Shown here: in pieces, positions 24,719-59,998 of the stretch
Numbering within the stretch: position 1 is the stretch's first letter
Layout: the number at the start of each line of letters is the position of its first letter
Assembly: GCA_028867785.1 (NCBI GenBank)
Contig: JAGWFS010000006.1
Span: 62,001 to 126,000 of the forward strand
From: Nitrososphaerota archaeon
GTDB taxonomy: Archaea > Thermoproteota > Nitrososphaeria > Nitrososphaerales > Nitrosopumilaceae
Length of the DNA stretch: 64,000 nucleotides
Direction of reading: 5' to 3'
Made by a program: the position numbers and the translations under genes
The notes under the pieces: model-generated
Databases searched by the model: none
What the model was told of the DNA's origin: nothing
The model's input: only the letters and a program-made list of their open reading frames with translations

Positions 24719-25219
24719 ATGAACAACCGTAGGCTACGTCGTGATCCAAAAATAATCGCGTTGGTGACTCTGTCTATGTTGCTTCCTGCAGACATTAGCA
24801 AGAAAATGCTAAAAGAAGCAAATTTGGGAATCAGTGAAAAAACTTTGCAACGTATTAAAAGTGACATAAAGAATCTTGGCATCGGACACATGACTGAGAA
24901 GGTTCACAAGATTTACATGCTGACCACGATGGACTCGTTGACCGATGCTATGAAATTAAAAGAGGGCCTATTTCAGATCATCAATGATCCTGACTCGAAC
25001 AAACGGGAGAAAATAAAAGCTTCTCAAGTTCTTTTTAACATTCTCAAAGGCATTCCAGATCTATACGATCCAGAAATTTCGGAATCGATTCAATCCGCAT
25101 ACAATACAGAAAAAAATGAAAGGTATGAGGCAAGCGGAGGATTAGATGTTGGTAATGATGCCAGTCAGACAGGTAGGAATCATGACAGCGGTCATGATGC
25201 CATACACGATTCAACATAG
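24719..25219 (+). CDS. Terminase small subunit-like protein
   Basis: A 166-residue protein: basic N-terminus, predicted helix-turn-helix ('MLLPADISKKMLKEANLGISEKTLQRIKSDI'), a central helical part ('MDSLTDAMKLKEGLFQIINDPDS', 'IKASQVLFNILKGIPDLYD') and a disordered acidic/His-rich tail. HTH plus oligomerising helices plus position directly before terL, 14 bases apart, is the usual pattern of TerS, which recognises viral DNA and recruits TerL. No sequence signature proves this, so it rests on architecture and context. ATG at 24719 follows a TATA-like element at about 24685. Confidence 0.6.
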   Translation: MNNRRLRRDPKIIALVTLSMLLPADISKKMLKEANLGISEKTLQRIKSDIKNLGIGHMTEKVHKIYMLTTMDSLTDAMKLKEGLFQIINDPDSNKREKIKASQVLFNILKGIPDLYDPEISESIQSAYNTEKNERYEASGGLDVGNDASQTGRNHDSGHDAIHDST

Positions 25220-25233
25220 GGACGTTCGTTTAC

Positions 25234-26817
25234 GTGAAGAGGACCAGAAGAGCACTCAAAAAATACCAAGATGTAAAAAGGGCTGCCTTGAAACAAAGCC
25301 TCAGGCCAAGCAGTGGCTTTTCATGTGTAAGCTATGACAATCTTGCATCATGGTCTGAAGGGATAAGATTGATCAAGGGGAGGAGGTTCTCTCTTGCAGA
25401 CAGGCCGCATCTGAGAAAACTATACAATCTTGACTATAGGGAGATCAACATAGTCAAGGGCCGCCAGACGGAGATGACAGAGTTTGCGCTGAACTGGCTG
25501 CTCTTCGACCTAACCAGGAATGCAAATACGATAGGCCTGTACATGTCCGACAGGCAGGACCACGTATCGATATTTTCCAGGCTCAGGCTGCAGGGGGCAA
25601 TAGAACAGTCGCCATATCTGCAGCAGCAGGTAAGGAGGGGCGAGCACAACGTAAGATGGCAGTCTTTTGTCAACGGTTCGCATCTCTACATGTATTCCGG
25701 ATGGGGAGACTTTGAGGCAGCCCGCTCGATTCCGGCTGACTTTGTAGTCATCGATGAGATGCAGTCACAGAACGTTGGAGCCATACCCGTGGTGAAGGAA
25801 TCAATGGCCCATTCCAGGTTCAAAAAAATAATCAAGATCGGGACCGGCTCTGACGAGGGAGATGCATGGCACAGGGAATGGAATGCTGGAACGATACTCG
25901 GGTGGGATAAAAGAACAGAATCGTGGATTCCAAGGCCGGATGTGTCTGGGATGCCTGGTGTTGCGTCGTTGCACATACCGCAGTCAATGATGGAATATGT
26001 CAATCCAAATATCGGTGCGGAAATTGAGCAGAAAAAGATGACATACACGCATAGAAATTTTGTCAACGAGGTGGAAGGCTGGTTCTACAAGGGAATGAGA
26101 AAACCGCTGCTGGAATCCGACATACGCGCACTCATGGACAGGAACCTTGACTTCACGGCAGCAATCGACATAGACCATACAATGCCGGTATACGTAGGAG
26201 TCGATTGGGGGGGAGGACTGCAGGCATTCACGGTTGCGTGGGTCTGGCAGCTGATAAACAGGGACCTTCCCAGATTCCAGCTGCTATACGTCAAAAAATA
26301 CGACGACCGTTCTACAGAGGTGCAGGCAGACAAGATAATCACACTCATCGATGCAGTGGAAGCAGACCGCGTAGTTGTCGATGCAGGAGGAGGACCGAGA
26401 CAGGTTGAGAAATTGTCAGACAGATACGCAGAGCGCGTTTTCAAGTGTCATTATCTCTCAAGGCCCGAGCAGCCGTTTGAGCCGATATCAGACGAGAGGA
26501 GAATAAACGTAGACAGGACATGGATTATTGAAACTATGATTGATTTGATTACAAGACCTGAGACAAGAGACGACTTTCCACATCCCATTCCAAGATTGAT
26601 AATACCAGGAGTACCGCACAGGCTGGACGAGATTGAATGGATTATAGACCACTTTACATGCATTGAAGCCGAGACATCAAACGCTGCGGGAAGGCCAAGA
26701 ACCATTTACACGCATCCTGATGATACGACGGATGATGCCATACACGCTGCATGCTATGCCTATCTCGCGTGGTTGCTGGACGACAGGACAAGATGGGACT
26801 GGGTAAGATTCGGATAA
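25234..26817 (+). CDS. terL: Terminase large subunit (DNA-packaging ATPase/nuclease) of a head-tailed virus
   Basis: A 527-residue TerL. The ATPase half has a Walker A-like loop at 75-82 (KGRQTEMT, lacking the usual G-K-T), Walker B VVIDE (171-175) and a coupling motif around 201-206 (KIGTGS). The RNase H-like nuclease half shows Asp324 in 'VGVDWGGG', Asp383 in 'VVVDAGGG' and the Asp cluster 496-501 in 'HPDDTTDDAIHAA', so all metal ligands seem intact. It would pump and cut concatemeric virus DNA. No capsid, portal, tail or integrase gene is nearby, so this is an orphan pair with the TerS-like gene. The frame begins with GTG at 25234. The gene appears undamaged. Confidence 0.85.
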   Translation: MKRTRRALKKYQDVKRAALKQSLRPSSGFSCVSYDNLASWSEGIRLIKGRRFSLADRPHLRKLYNLDYREINIVKGRQTEMTEFALNWLLFDLTRNANTIGLYMSDRQDHVSIFSRLRLQGAIEQSPYLQQQVRRGEHNVRWQSFVNGSHLYMYSGWGDFEAARSIPADFVVIDEMQSQNVGAIPVVKESMAHSRFKKIIKIGTGSDEGDAWHREWNAGTILGWDKRTESWIPRPDVSGMPGVASLHIPQSMMEYVNPNIGAEIEQKKMTYTHRNFVNEVEGWFYKGMRKPLLESDIRALMDRNLDFTAAIDIDHTMPVYVGVDWGGGLQAFTVAWVWQLINRDLPRFQLLYVKKYDDRSTEVQADKIITLIDAVEADRVVVDAGGGPRQVEKLSDRYAERVFKCHYLSRPEQPFEPISDERRINVDRTWIIETMIDLITRPETRDDFPHPIPRLIIPGVPHRLDEIEWIIDHFTCIEAETSNAAGRPRTIYTHPDDTTDDAIHAACYAYLAWLLDDRTRWDWVRFG

Positions 26818-39197: not shown

Positions 39198-40367
39198 TCA
39201 TACCGAGACCAACTTGCTTCCATCTACTCCAAGGATTATCGGAATTAAGTTGTCCGAGTTCCCCTTCATCACTTCAACTGAAAGCCCTCTAGGATGGCAA
39301 AACCTACTCCACCCCTTGTGAGCAATATTCATGGATGCCACTACATCTCTGTCCATGGACCTGCCACAATTATTGCACCATAATTTGCGATGTTGAAATC
39401 TGTCCTCTTGGATTCTCTCTCCGCATATTGGACAGAGTTGGCTGGTGCGTTTTGGATCTACAAACTGTACCGGTATTCCTTCCCATGCTGCTTTATACTG
39501 TATCTGTCTTTGCAATTCGTAGAAAGACCACGAATTTAATCGTCTTCTGTATTTTCTTCCCTGACCGTTTCCCTTTCTGTACAGTTTGCGGATTCCCTTG
39601 ATCTCTTCAAGTACAATCATGGATTCTGACTCTTTGGCTTTGTTTACGATATCCTTTGATATTTTATGTAGATACTGCTGTACCCGCCTTGACTGCCTGT
39701 TTTTTCTCTGCGTAAAGAATCCATTTCGTACTCGCAAGTCATTTCTCCTAAACGATGCCCTCACAAATTGAGAGTTTTCTTTTATCGACAGCAATTTGTT
39801 GGTTTTGTACATAATGGAACTTGCAGGCGTGGACATGGTTACATTTCTTAGGTTCCTGTCTATTCCAATTACATTTTTAGGAATAATTTCCTGTACCTCT
39901 TTTCTTACTGAGAGAGATAATGAGTCTGGATTAATTGTAAATGACCTCAGTTCTACACCCTTCTCTGAGAGCTTTTGTACAGCATGTCCGTTGAGCACGA
40001 TATTGAAAAACTCTCTGTTTGCAACAGGAAATGAGAGCATCATCCCATTTATCTTGAATCCGTAACACGACACCAGAAACGGCCTTCTTACAAATGGAGA
40101 TCTTGACCTGTTGCCTTTCTTGATTGATCGTTTCATCTGTGAGAGCCGTCCACATGCCTGCGAGATGGCCGTTAGCTTGTATTTTGACTGGATATGATAG
40201 CAGTCAAGTTCATGGTAGAACGTTGAGGAAAAACGCCTCAGTGTTGATACGTTGCTTTCAAGTCCAATCCTGATGCAGTGGTTTACCATCTCTCTGAATG
40301 TGTTCATCATGGTACCAAGCTCAGGATCTGGATGATAAGACTGCTTGATGGATTTTATGGCATACAA
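39198..40367 (-). CDS. tnpB: TnpB-like RNA-guided nuclease (IS200/IS605 OrfB)
   Basis: 389 residues with the RuvC-like nuclease split motifs: Asp170 ('NVIGIDRNLRNVT'), Glu254/255 ('IVLEEIKGIRKL') and Asp341 ('SMDRDVVASMNIA'). The zinc finger lies between the second and third (CPIC at 312-315, CNNC at 331-334). All catalytic residues are in place, so the protein looks active. TnpB uses an omega RNA, usually read from its own 3' end and the adjoining element end, to cut DNA. There is no tnpA transposase nearby, so this is a stand-alone or immobile copy. The start is ATG at 40367. Confidence 0.92.
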   Translation of the reverse strand: MYAIKSIKQSYHPDPELGTMMNTFREMVNHCIRIGLESNVSTLRRFSSTFYHELDCYHIQSKYKLTAISQACGRLSQMKRSIKKGNRSRSPFVRRPFLVSCYGFKINGMMLSFPVANREFFNIVLNGHAVQKLSEKGVELRSFTINPDSLSLSVRKEVQEIIPKNVIGIDRNLRNVTMSTPASSIMYKTNKLLSIKENSQFVRASFRRNDLRVRNGFFTQRKNRQSRRVQQYLHKISKDIVNKAKESESMIVLEEIKGIRKLYRKGNGQGRKYRRRLNSWSFYELQRQIQYKAAWEGIPVQFVDPKRTSQLCPICGERIQEDRFQHRKLWCNNCGRSMDRDVVASMNIAHKGWSRFCHPRGLSVEVMKGNSDNLIPIILGVDGSKLVSV

Positions 40368-57588: not shown

Positions 57589-57597
57589 TTTTATAAG
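57589..57597 (+). promoter_or_regulatory. TATA box for the secreted Hcp-like gene
   Basis: TTTTATAAG lies 27-35 bases before the ATG at 57624, an ordinary archaeal box A for a leaderless transcript. Confidence 0.6.
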
Positions 57598-57623: not shown

Positions 57624-58199
57624 ATGGTCATGAGAGGAATCATAAAATATTCAATAATTCTTGCTGCAACACTTGGATTGATTGTAGCTGGAACCTCAAG
57701 CTCTTATGCAACTGATACTTCTGGTTCCGATCCAATCTTTATGAAAATTAGTGGTGTAACTGGAGATAGTAAAACAAAAGAATTTCCGGGTGATATAGAA
57801 TTACAAAGTTTCCAGTTCGGAATTCAACATCAGATAGACCCTGCCACTGGCCAGAGTTCGGGCAGAACAGTCTTTGAACCTATCGTAGTCACAAAATCAA
57901 TGGATGGTACATCTCCCAAAATATTTACCGACGTTGCTGGCGGGACAGTCATACCTCGAGTCGACATCTACTTTGCCAAAACAACTCCTTCCGGACTCCT
58001 CCAAACATATGCACATTATGTTCTAACAAATGTCATAATTTCATCCTATTCTGTCTCAGCCGGTGTTGATGCCCCCACTGAAAATCTTAGCTTGAATTTT
58101 CAAAAGATTCAGTTTGAGTTTTCAACAACAAATCCAGATGGAACACTGGCTTCCCCCGGCGTTGCCTCGTGGGATCTAGCATTAAACACACCATCATAA
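57624..58199 (+). CDS. Secreted Hcp-like (type VI secretion tube family) protein
   Basis: 191 residues: signal peptide ('IIKYSIILAATLGLIVAGTSSSYA'-like, ending near residue 30) then about 155 residues of the Hcp fold. Matches to the family: 'DPIFMKISGVTGDSKTKEF', 'IELQSFQFGIQH', 'SSGRTVFEPIVVTKSMDGTSPKIFTDV', 'HYVLTNVIISSYSVSAGVDAPTENLSLNFQKIQFEFS'. In bacteria Hcp forms stacked hexameric rings and is not made with a signal peptide. An archaeal, Sec-exported Hcp with no other type VI gene nearby must work differently, e.g. as an extracellular assembly or glycan-binding module. A 68-base gap separates a second, longer relative. Confidence 0.8.
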   Translation: MVMRGIIKYSIILAATLGLIVAGTSSSYATDTSGSDPIFMKISGVTGDSKTKEFPGDIELQSFQFGIQHQIDPATGQSSGRTVFEPIVVTKSMDGTSPKIFTDVAGGTVIPRVDIYFAKTTPSGLLQTYAHYVLTNVIISSYSVSAGVDAPTENLSLNFQKIQFEFSTTNPDGTLASPGVASWDLALNTPS

Positions 58200-58267
58200 T
58201 TAACTAGGCAAATTTACGATGAGATGATCGAGTTTCAATTTCTGCATTCTCTAACGGTTGATGCAAT

Positions 58268-59998
58268 TTGATCAAGTACCTGCTTGCCGGCATTTTTCTG
58301 GCATCTCTTTGTTTTACAATACATGATGCGCAAGGAGCTTTGTTTCTCAAGATTGATTCCATTCCCGGAGATTCAACCGTAAGTGGTCATGAAAATCAAA
58401 TTGAGATCTCAGGTCTGCAATTCGGAGAAGAAAATAATCCTGTAGTATCTGCTGCCACAGTAGAGTCAGGAAAGACTACTTTTGATGACATGCAAATCAC
58501 AAAATTCATGGACAGATCATCTACATCTCTTGTCAATGATTTAGTCACAGGAAAATCCATCCCAACAGTGGAACTATTTCTAACAAAGACTGTGAACGGT
58601 CATGAATTTACCTATAACCATATCACCCTAAACAATGTGATGATCTCAAGATATGTCGTCTCATCAGGAGGCAATACCCCATCTGAAATCATCAGCTTCC
58701 AATATGGAAAAATCTCTACAGCGTTTACCTTGCAAAATCCTGATGGCTCTCTAGGCCAAACAATCACGTCATGTTGGGACATTTCCATACAAGGACCATG
58801 CATAGACACTTCAATTCCTACGGTATCTGGCACTGTAAATATGACTGCAAACGCAAATGGCTGGTACAACCATACTCTCAGCATTGCATGGACTGGCAAT
58901 GATCCAGTAGATGGCATAAGCACTTGCGATCCACCCACAATATATTCAGGACCTGATGCAAAGGGAGCAAACGAGATAGGACATTGCACAGACAATTTTG
59001 GAAACGTTGGAACAGGTAGCGTACTGATAAACTATGACGCAACTCCCCCTACAATTACTGGAGGGCCTACAGTCCCGGCTAACTCGTATGGTTGGTACAA
59101 TACTACAGTCATCGTACATTTCACAGCATCTGATTCGATGTCAGGAGTTGCAAGCGTAACACCAGATACCACAGTTTCTACAGAAGGTACCAATCAGCAA
59201 GTCGCCGGAACTGCTACCGATTATGCAGGAAACTCTGCATCATATACTGTCTCTGGAATAAATATCGACAAGACTCCTCCTGTCACTACTGGAACTCTGT
59301 CTAGACTGCCTGACCATAACGGCTGGTACAATCATCCCGTTGCAATACAATGGAGCGGTACAGACAACCTGAGCGGTATTGCTTCTTGTGATCCGAATAC
59401 AAGCTATACAGGTCCTGACGGCCCCCTGATTTCACTTTCAGGAAGTTGTCTTGACAAGGCAGGAAACCGTGGCAGTTCGACAGTTACTTTCAAGTACGAC
59501 ATAACCCCACCAACTCTTGTTGTATCTGACAACATGACCGTATTTCCGACAAACCCCAACGGTGCCACAGTAAGCTATCCAAAAGCAAATGCAACCGATG
59601 ATGAGCCAAGCAGTGCATTGTGCACCCCGTCGTCTGGTTCGCAATTTGGATTTGGGCAAGATATCGTCTCTTGCATTGCAACTGACGATGCAGGAAATAA
59701 CGCCGCAAAATCTTTCTGGATAACAGTGCTGACACCGGCACAGGCAACGCAAAAACTTACTAGTATCATTAACGGCATGAGTCTACCTGGCGGCCAGGCA
59801 AACAGCTTTGATTCGAAGCTTGCAGCTGTTCTATCCTCTATAAACTCAGACGACAACAAAACTGCAACGAACCAACTAAACGCATTCATCAATGAAGTAA
59901 ACGCACAGGCGGGAAAGAAGATATCATCATCTGAAGCATCCCAATTGCTGCTTGACGCCCAAGATATATCAAACTCTCTACTGGTTTCTAAAAAATAG
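58268..59998 (+). CDS. Secreted Hcp-like domain protein with Ig-like repeats
   Basis: 576 residues: signal peptide ('IKYLLAGIFLASLCFTIHDAQG'), Hcp-like domain (about 25-185: 'LFLKIDSIPGDSTVSGHENQIEISGLQFG', 'SGKTTFDDMQITKFMDRSS', 'ITLNNVMISRYVVSSGGNTPSEIISF'), three related Ig-like units of about 85 residues, each with a N/Y-G-W-Y-N-x-T/P motif ('NANGWYNHTLSIAWTG', 'NSYGWYNTTVIVHFTAS', 'DHNGWYNHPVAIQWSG') and Cys pairs, then an HYR-like domain ('TPPTLVVSDNMTVFP') and a helical C-terminus. TTG start at 58268. No membrane anchor at the end is seen, so it is probably released or attached to the cell wall. It likely partners the preceding Hcp-like protein. Confidence 0.75.
   Translation: MIKYLLAGIFLASLCFTIHDAQGALFLKIDSIPGDSTVSGHENQIEISGLQFGEENNPVVSAATVESGKTTFDDMQITKFMDRSSTSLVNDLVTGKSIPTVELFLTKTVNGHEFTYNHITLNNVMISRYVVSSGGNTPSEIISFQYGKISTAFTLQNPDGSLGQTITSCWDISIQGPCIDTSIPTVSGTVNMTANANGWYNHTLSIAWTGNDPVDGISTCDPPTIYSGPDAKGANEIGHCTDNFGNVGTGSVLINYDATPPTITGGPTVPANSYGWYNTTVIVHFTASDSMSGVASVTPDTTVSTEGTNQQVAGTATDYAGNSASYTVSGINIDKTPPVTTGTLSRLPDHNGWYNHPVAIQWSGTDNLSGIASCDPNTSYTGPDGPLISLSGSCLDKAGNRGSSTVTFKYDITPPTLVVSDNMTVFPTNPNGATVSYPKANATDDEPSSALCTPSSGSQFGFGQDIVSCIATDDAGNNAAKSFWITVLTPAQATQKLTSIINGMSLPGGQANSFDSKLAAVLSSINSDDNKTATNQLNAFINEVNAQAGKKISSSEASQLLLDAQDISNSLLVSKK

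Follow-up and report, generated by a model that had tools for sequence, protein, structure and literature searches.

Tandem Hcp-domain proteins with predicted Sec signal peptides in an archaeal genome free of a type VI secretion system

Hcp is read as an indicator of type VI secretion. The Hcp protein (TssD) of a type VI secretion system (T6SS) has no classical signal peptide and stays in the cytoplasm until the system fires (PMC2944823). In B. pseudomallei Hcp1, the loop from Asp40 to Arg56 makes the ring-ring contact, and its mutation stops stacking (PMC4650826). Exported bacterial Hcps exist but have been set aside, because PEP-CTERM-bearing Hcp genes were excluded before analysis from the large 2021 survey of Hcp effectors (PMC8262886). 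A paper on the haloarchaeal contractile system mentions neither Hcp nor the archaeal group studied here (PMC11566945), and nothing relevant on Hcp in these archaea was found among open-licence papers, in agreement with the original prediction that such a module had not been described in this group.

The window analyzed here is a 64-kb stretch of a 133-kb contig from the 2.55-Mb genome of a Nitrososphaerota archaeon of the ammonia-oxidizer type (estimated to be 99.9% complete). Two tandem secreted Hcp-like proteins had been predicted in it. Both open reading frames exist as described, on the same strand (Table 1), both products match the Hcp profile PF05638, and a genome-wide search found these two Hcp genes only. 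The long gene starts with TTG, which is conserved in the sister genome. The position of a TATA-like element upstream of the short gene suggests a leaderless transcript; by eye, a TATA-like sequence is also present upstream in the sister genome (locus L043).

Table 1. Features of the Hcp locus (positions are those of the 64-kb window)
Feature	Position	Strand	Basis or remark
TATA-like element, tttataag	57590..57597	+	about 27 bp upstream of the short gene ATG; by eye, without statistical test
Short secreted Hcp, 191 aa	57624..58199	+	open reading frame, profile and structure matches
Short Hcp, predicted Sec signal peptide, residues 1-29 (cleavage SSYA/TD)	57624..57710	+	hydropathy; cleavage site by eye
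Short protein, Hcp domain, residues 39-166	57738..58121	+	Pfam
Short Hcp, extended loop, residues 67-87	57822..57884	+	equivalent of the T6SS Hcp ring-ring contact loop L2,3; alignments; loop role per PMC4650826
Long secreted Hcp-adhesin-like protein, 576 aa	58268..59998	+	68 bp downstream of the short gene
Long protein, predicted Sec signal peptide, residues 1-23 (cleavage DAQG/A)	58268..58336	+	hydropathy; cleavage site by eye
Long protein, Hcp domain, residues 26-151	58343..58720	+	Pfam
Three Ig-like repeats with GWYN motifs, approximately residues 180-410	58805..59497	+	by eye; weak model matches (DUF7743, OmpL47-type)
HYR domain, residues 411-487	59498..59728	+	PF02494, 34.6 bits (cut-off, 21.7)
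C-terminal helical FIMAH-like region, residues 505-567	59780..59968	+	PF22888, 21.8 bits, below the cut-off of 24.8; helices in model

PF05638 scored 109.1 bits for the short protein (E value, 2.4e-31) and 99.1 bits for the long protein (E value, 2.9e-28), against a cut-off of 23.5, and the model was covered essentially end to end in both. The NCBIfam model for the type VI secretion system tube protein TssD (TIGR03344; cut-off, 58.9) was passed by the short protein (59.4) and failed by the long protein (45.5). Matches in a PDB sequence search with both proteins were Hcp or Hcp fusions, the closest being Hcp/TssD. An AlphaFold model of the short protein had a pLDDT of 82, rising above 90 over most of the Hcp domain and falling below 50 in residues 1 to 33, which lie outside the fold. 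Foldseek placed Hcp crystal structures at the top of its matches to this model, with TM scores normalised to the target of about 0.8 to 0.92 (1y12, 0.87; 4tv4, 0.92; E value, ~1e-13). The structural check proposed with the original prediction thus returned the Hcp fold and not a different beta-barrel. The fold search was confined to the short protein; the model of the long protein had an overall pLDDT of 52, and its Ig-like repeat region formed beta-strands at low confidence. The adhesin-like layout claimed for the second protein is supported by an HYR domain above its cut-off and by Ig-like repeats recognized by eye, and only the long protein combines an export signal with Ig/HYR repeats.

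Export signals were called with a hydropathy heuristic (the best 12-residue window on the Kyte-Doolittle scale) rather than SignalP, and cleavage is predicted. The maxima were 2.78 for the short protein and 2.52 for the long protein, supporting the earlier claim of Sec signal peptides on both. The N terminus was hydrophobic in 44/44 archaeal Hcp proteins in which it was complete (minimum, 2.16; median, 2.86), versus a median of 0.73 for 54 bacterial Hcps. The highest bacterial exception (1/54, at 2.04) was a window inside the Hcp domain, and separation of archaeal from bacterial proteins in this set was almost complete. In a second set of 50 Pseudomonadota frames, a single Hcp had a convincing signal peptide (L202:1060-1581, +). 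Planctomycete Hcps, considered as a bacterial parallel for secretion, had a signal peptide in 0 of the 29 loci sampled. A start-codon error was rejected as the source of the signal peptide, since a similar extension is present in every archaeal member examined (44/44).

The original prediction saw no type VI system nearby, and this holds genome-wide: searches of the window genome for TssC (VipB), the tail sheath (PF04984) and the VgrG OB domain (PF04717) were all empty. The genome therefore encodes neither the sheath TssC and spike VgrG of a T6SS nor the sheath and PF04717 spike of an eCIS, and a contractile system elsewhere in the genome was rejected. TssC was found in none of the 14 archaeal Hcp carriers tested and in none of the 250 genomes of the Nitrososphaerota family; among the closest bacterial relatives, 16 of 17 genomes had it. 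The only sheath match among carriers (genome G295) lies on a tailed-virus-like contig, separate from the contig of its Hcp genes. One of the 14 carrier genomes encodes a VgrG-like OB-domain protein (L168:10403-11065, -; G739/G399, contig C8). It has 220 aa, with an N-terminal signal or transmembrane segment and a VgrG-type OB domain (PF04717, 54 bits), and shares its 57-kb contig with a Sec-exported Hcp (L167:6953-7537); it is apparently a second T6SS part re-exported in an archaeon.

The window proteins are Hcp-domain proteins, yet they are not T6SS Hcps, because two defining features were tested and neither applies: a T6SS Hcp has no signal peptide, and its genome encodes a T6SS. Their identity as a T6SS-independent Hcp pair bearing signal peptides is almost certain. 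Compared with T6SS Hcp/TssD (PF05638, TIGR03344; PDB 1Y12, 3EAA, and 4TV4), the archaeal pair has the same fold, a full-length domain and the extended ring-stacking loop but differs in its Sec signal peptides, T6SS-free genome and recurrent adhesin-like tandem partner. It shares with evolved Hcp (Hcp-ET; PMC8262886) an N-terminal Hcp domain, a longer protein and variable C-terminal parts; unlike Hcp-ET, it has a Sec-type export signal, and the archaeal tails are extracellular Ig/HYR/TSP3/NHL modules, not toxins. Secreted Ig/HYR-repeat surface proteins resemble the long protein in their HYR and Ig-like repeats, their secretion and the even number of cysteines in the mature protein, but the archaeal repeats are fused to an Hcp domain and a stand-alone Hcp gene lies upstream. 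PEP-CTERM or other Sec-exported bacterial Hcps likewise combine an Hcp domain with an export or sorting signal, but the archaeal Hcp is paired with an Ig/HYR long partner and lacks a PEP-CTERM match. To our knowledge, these bacterial Hcps are not paired with such a partner, and they are apparently unstudied.

Of 398 genomes sampled across the phylum, 12 had an Hcp match above the cut-off; within the family, the count was 22 of 250. In eleven genomes, a short Hcp (~190 aa) and a long Hcp of 277 to 977 aa (one of these at least 417 aa) form a tandem on one strand, the short gene first, with a gap of 17 to 100 bp. Two further genomes, G295 and G315, have a divergent Hcp pair, and several carriers have single Hcps without a long partner. 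Long tails vary, comprising HYR with Ig-like repeats (the window), Big_3_5, HYR with TSP3, Big_7/Big_13 with HYR or NHL/beta-propeller, and short repeats. In another genome of the genus (G378), a 500-aa secreted protein (L031:8615-10117, -) contains a single strong Hcp domain; a second Hcp-like repeat, degenerate, was recognized by eye. In another family of the order (G390), Hcp matches are split over two frames (L042:9156-9473, -), and the gene is apparently broken.

Archaeal and bacterial Hcps interleave in a tree of 100 sequences and 164 columns, and its well-supported branches require the archaeal or bacterial label to change at least seven times; given the short alignment and the sampled bacteria, how many transfers took place, and in which direction, is uncertain. 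A supported 42-row set unites the window pair with Hcps of Alphaproteobacteria and Gemmataceae. The bacterial sequences nearest to the pair are Acetobacteraceae/Rhodopila and Gemmataceae Hcps (best segment, up to 45% identical), and the genomes they come from nearly all encode a T6SS. The simplest reading of the tree is repeated capture from bacteria, in which a signal peptide would have been gained each time. In three secreted proteins (L033:7032-8069, L163:7616-8668, and L166:8559-9599), a collagen-like Gly-X-Y stretch precedes the Hcp domain, for which the tree gives a planctomycete Hcp (L118) as nearest relative; the architecture is different, and the capture was apparently a separate event.

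In the window genome's genus, the pair is an inserted island. Of 30 genus loci examined, 24 have trmY and tfe as neighbors with 31 to 103 bp between them, and the Hcp pair lies between the two genes only in the window genome and the sister MAG REEA19. In the four other loci tfe was out of reach, and the two of these that were looked at contained different genes. The two genes are adjacent in another genus as well (G013), where a different single secreted Hcp (L029:9809-10354, -) lies 3 to 4 kb from the trmY-tfe site; the surroundings are possibly insertion prone. Contamination was rejected: the genes around the pair are archaeal (hflX, trmY, tfe, and ribD), and the sister genome carries the pair at the equivalent site. 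As to a virus origin, no relative was found in IMG/VR with the patterns used, though PHROG 27303 (function unknown) is matched by the short protein. Elsewhere in the window are a phage terminase large subunit (25234-26817, +; PHROG 675; E value, 3e-52), preceded by a 166-aa open reading frame without a match, and, by eye, an IS605/TnpB-like protein (39198-40367, -). The terminase region (24719-26817, +) is a possible virus remnant.

Flanks and tails change far more slowly than the Hcp parts, which are being replaced or diversified. In 150-bp windows over 7 kb, the mature short Hcp was 66 to 79% identical to its sister at the nucleotide level; other windows were 82 to 98% identical, except one just past the short Hcp (80.7%), and the signal-peptide codons of the short gene were 93% identical. 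For the mature short Hcp, dS was 0.87 and dN 0.30, versus 0.34 to 0.55 and 0.007 to 0.028, respectively, for flanking genes; dS was low (0.16) for the long gene. Between G029 and G739, a second sister pair (locus L044), nucleotide identity was 57 to 61% for the short gene and 64% for the Hcp domain of the long gene (dS, 1.6), versus 91.6 to 95% for the long gene tail and three downstream genes; the change from low to high identity comes close to where the Hcp domain ends. Most simply, recombination would have swapped the Hcp segment and kept the tail; diversifying selection may contribute as well.

Orthologous pairs from six genomes in which the long Hcp domains form one clade (100/98 support) were compared for similarity between partners. 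In this small sample, identity of the extended loop between short and long proteins was 0.37 within genomes and 0.245 between genomes (permutation P = 0.013), versus 0.37 and 0.36 for the rest of the Hcp domain (P = 0.16). Partner identity in a sliding window peaked at the extended loop. The loop effect was stronger across ten genomes (P < 0.001), but in that set shared ancestry of the partners contributes, and the effect extends to the rest of the domain. Matching was strong in two of the six pairs (G739 and G029), and the window's own pair, with a loop identity of 0.18, did not show it. Loop matching could arise by local gene conversion. Since partner-specific identity peaks at the loop that stacks T6SS rings, these alignments suggest that short and long proteins may stack on each other.

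The reading we prefer, at about even chances, is that T6SS Hcp has been made into a two-part, Sec-exported surface ring or tube with an adhesive stalk, independent of any machine. These archaea would have acquired the Hcp domain from bacteria on more than one occasion. Both proteins would be exported by the Sec route, as their signal peptides imply. Outside the membrane, the short Hcp would form hexameric rings able to stack, given its fold and retained loop, and the Hcp domain of the long protein could enter the stack through the same loop as a base or cap ring. From there the C-terminal Ig/HYR tails would extend outward as stalks and bind a surface, the S-layer or neighboring cells. The Hcp part would be the exposed, fast-changing piece, and the tail a conserved working or anchoring piece. 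Attachment of the long protein to the cell is unexplained by this reading, because no C-terminal hydrophobic or membrane segment was found in the paired proteins examined.

The main rival to the ring or tube model is a plain surface adhesin, which we regard as a real though lesser possibility. Here the same Sec-exported module would use Hcp only as a binding or adhesive beta-barrel (for matrix, polysaccharide or cell contact), without rings or tubes, and the two genes would be paralogous adhesins diversifying as exposed surface proteins or virus receptors. The adhesin-like tails, the single Hcps and the fast divergence typical of exposed proteins fit this account, as do archaeal Hcps with N-terminal extensions, collagen-like or otherwise (L033, L163, and L034 are collagen-like or coiled). 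A kept ring-stacking loop and partner-specific similarity, however, would be unexpected in a plain adhesin.

Sec-delivered antagonism, with the long protein as an evolved Hcp effector acting on neighboring cells and the short protein as its carrier, is improbable. T6SS Hcp does carry effectors or is fused to them (PMC8262886), and the Sec-exported or membrane-anchored VgrG-like protein of one carrier genome is in line with the idea, but no toxin or enzyme domain was found in any long tail scanned, the tails being Ig/HYR/TSP3/NHL modules. Nor did a third gene recur beside the pair across genomes, beyond close-relative synteny and common families, that could be a candidate immunity gene. Among the functions first proposed, the surface tube and the matrix or contact module fit best, and the antagonism device, for which no toxin domain was found, is not supported.

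A very improbable further reading is that these surface Hcps protect the archaea as decoys when a T6SS attacks: rings captured from bacterial T6SSs and displayed on the outside would co-assemble with or cap the attacker's incoming Hcp tube. If true, it would account for both the repeated bacterial capture and the fast turnover of the Hcp part and stacking loop on a conserved stalk. That the Hcps form the working tube of a contractile injection system that escaped detection is scarcely credible and largely refuted by the genome-wide searches: the Hcp fold and the contractile injection systems of haloarchaea (PMC11566945) speak for it, but sheath, TssC and VgrG are absent from a nearly complete genome, TssC is absent across the family genomes, and assembly in the cytoplasm cannot be reconciled with Sec signal peptides.

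A recurrent Sec-exported archaeal Hcp pair without a machine shows that proteins of another kind are being annotated as T6SS by pipelines. For this widespread archaeal lineage, in which cell contacts are poorly understood, the preferred reading, of a Sec-exported ring or tube with an adhesive stalk, would supply a natural example of an injection-tube ring that came to serve as a surface structure.
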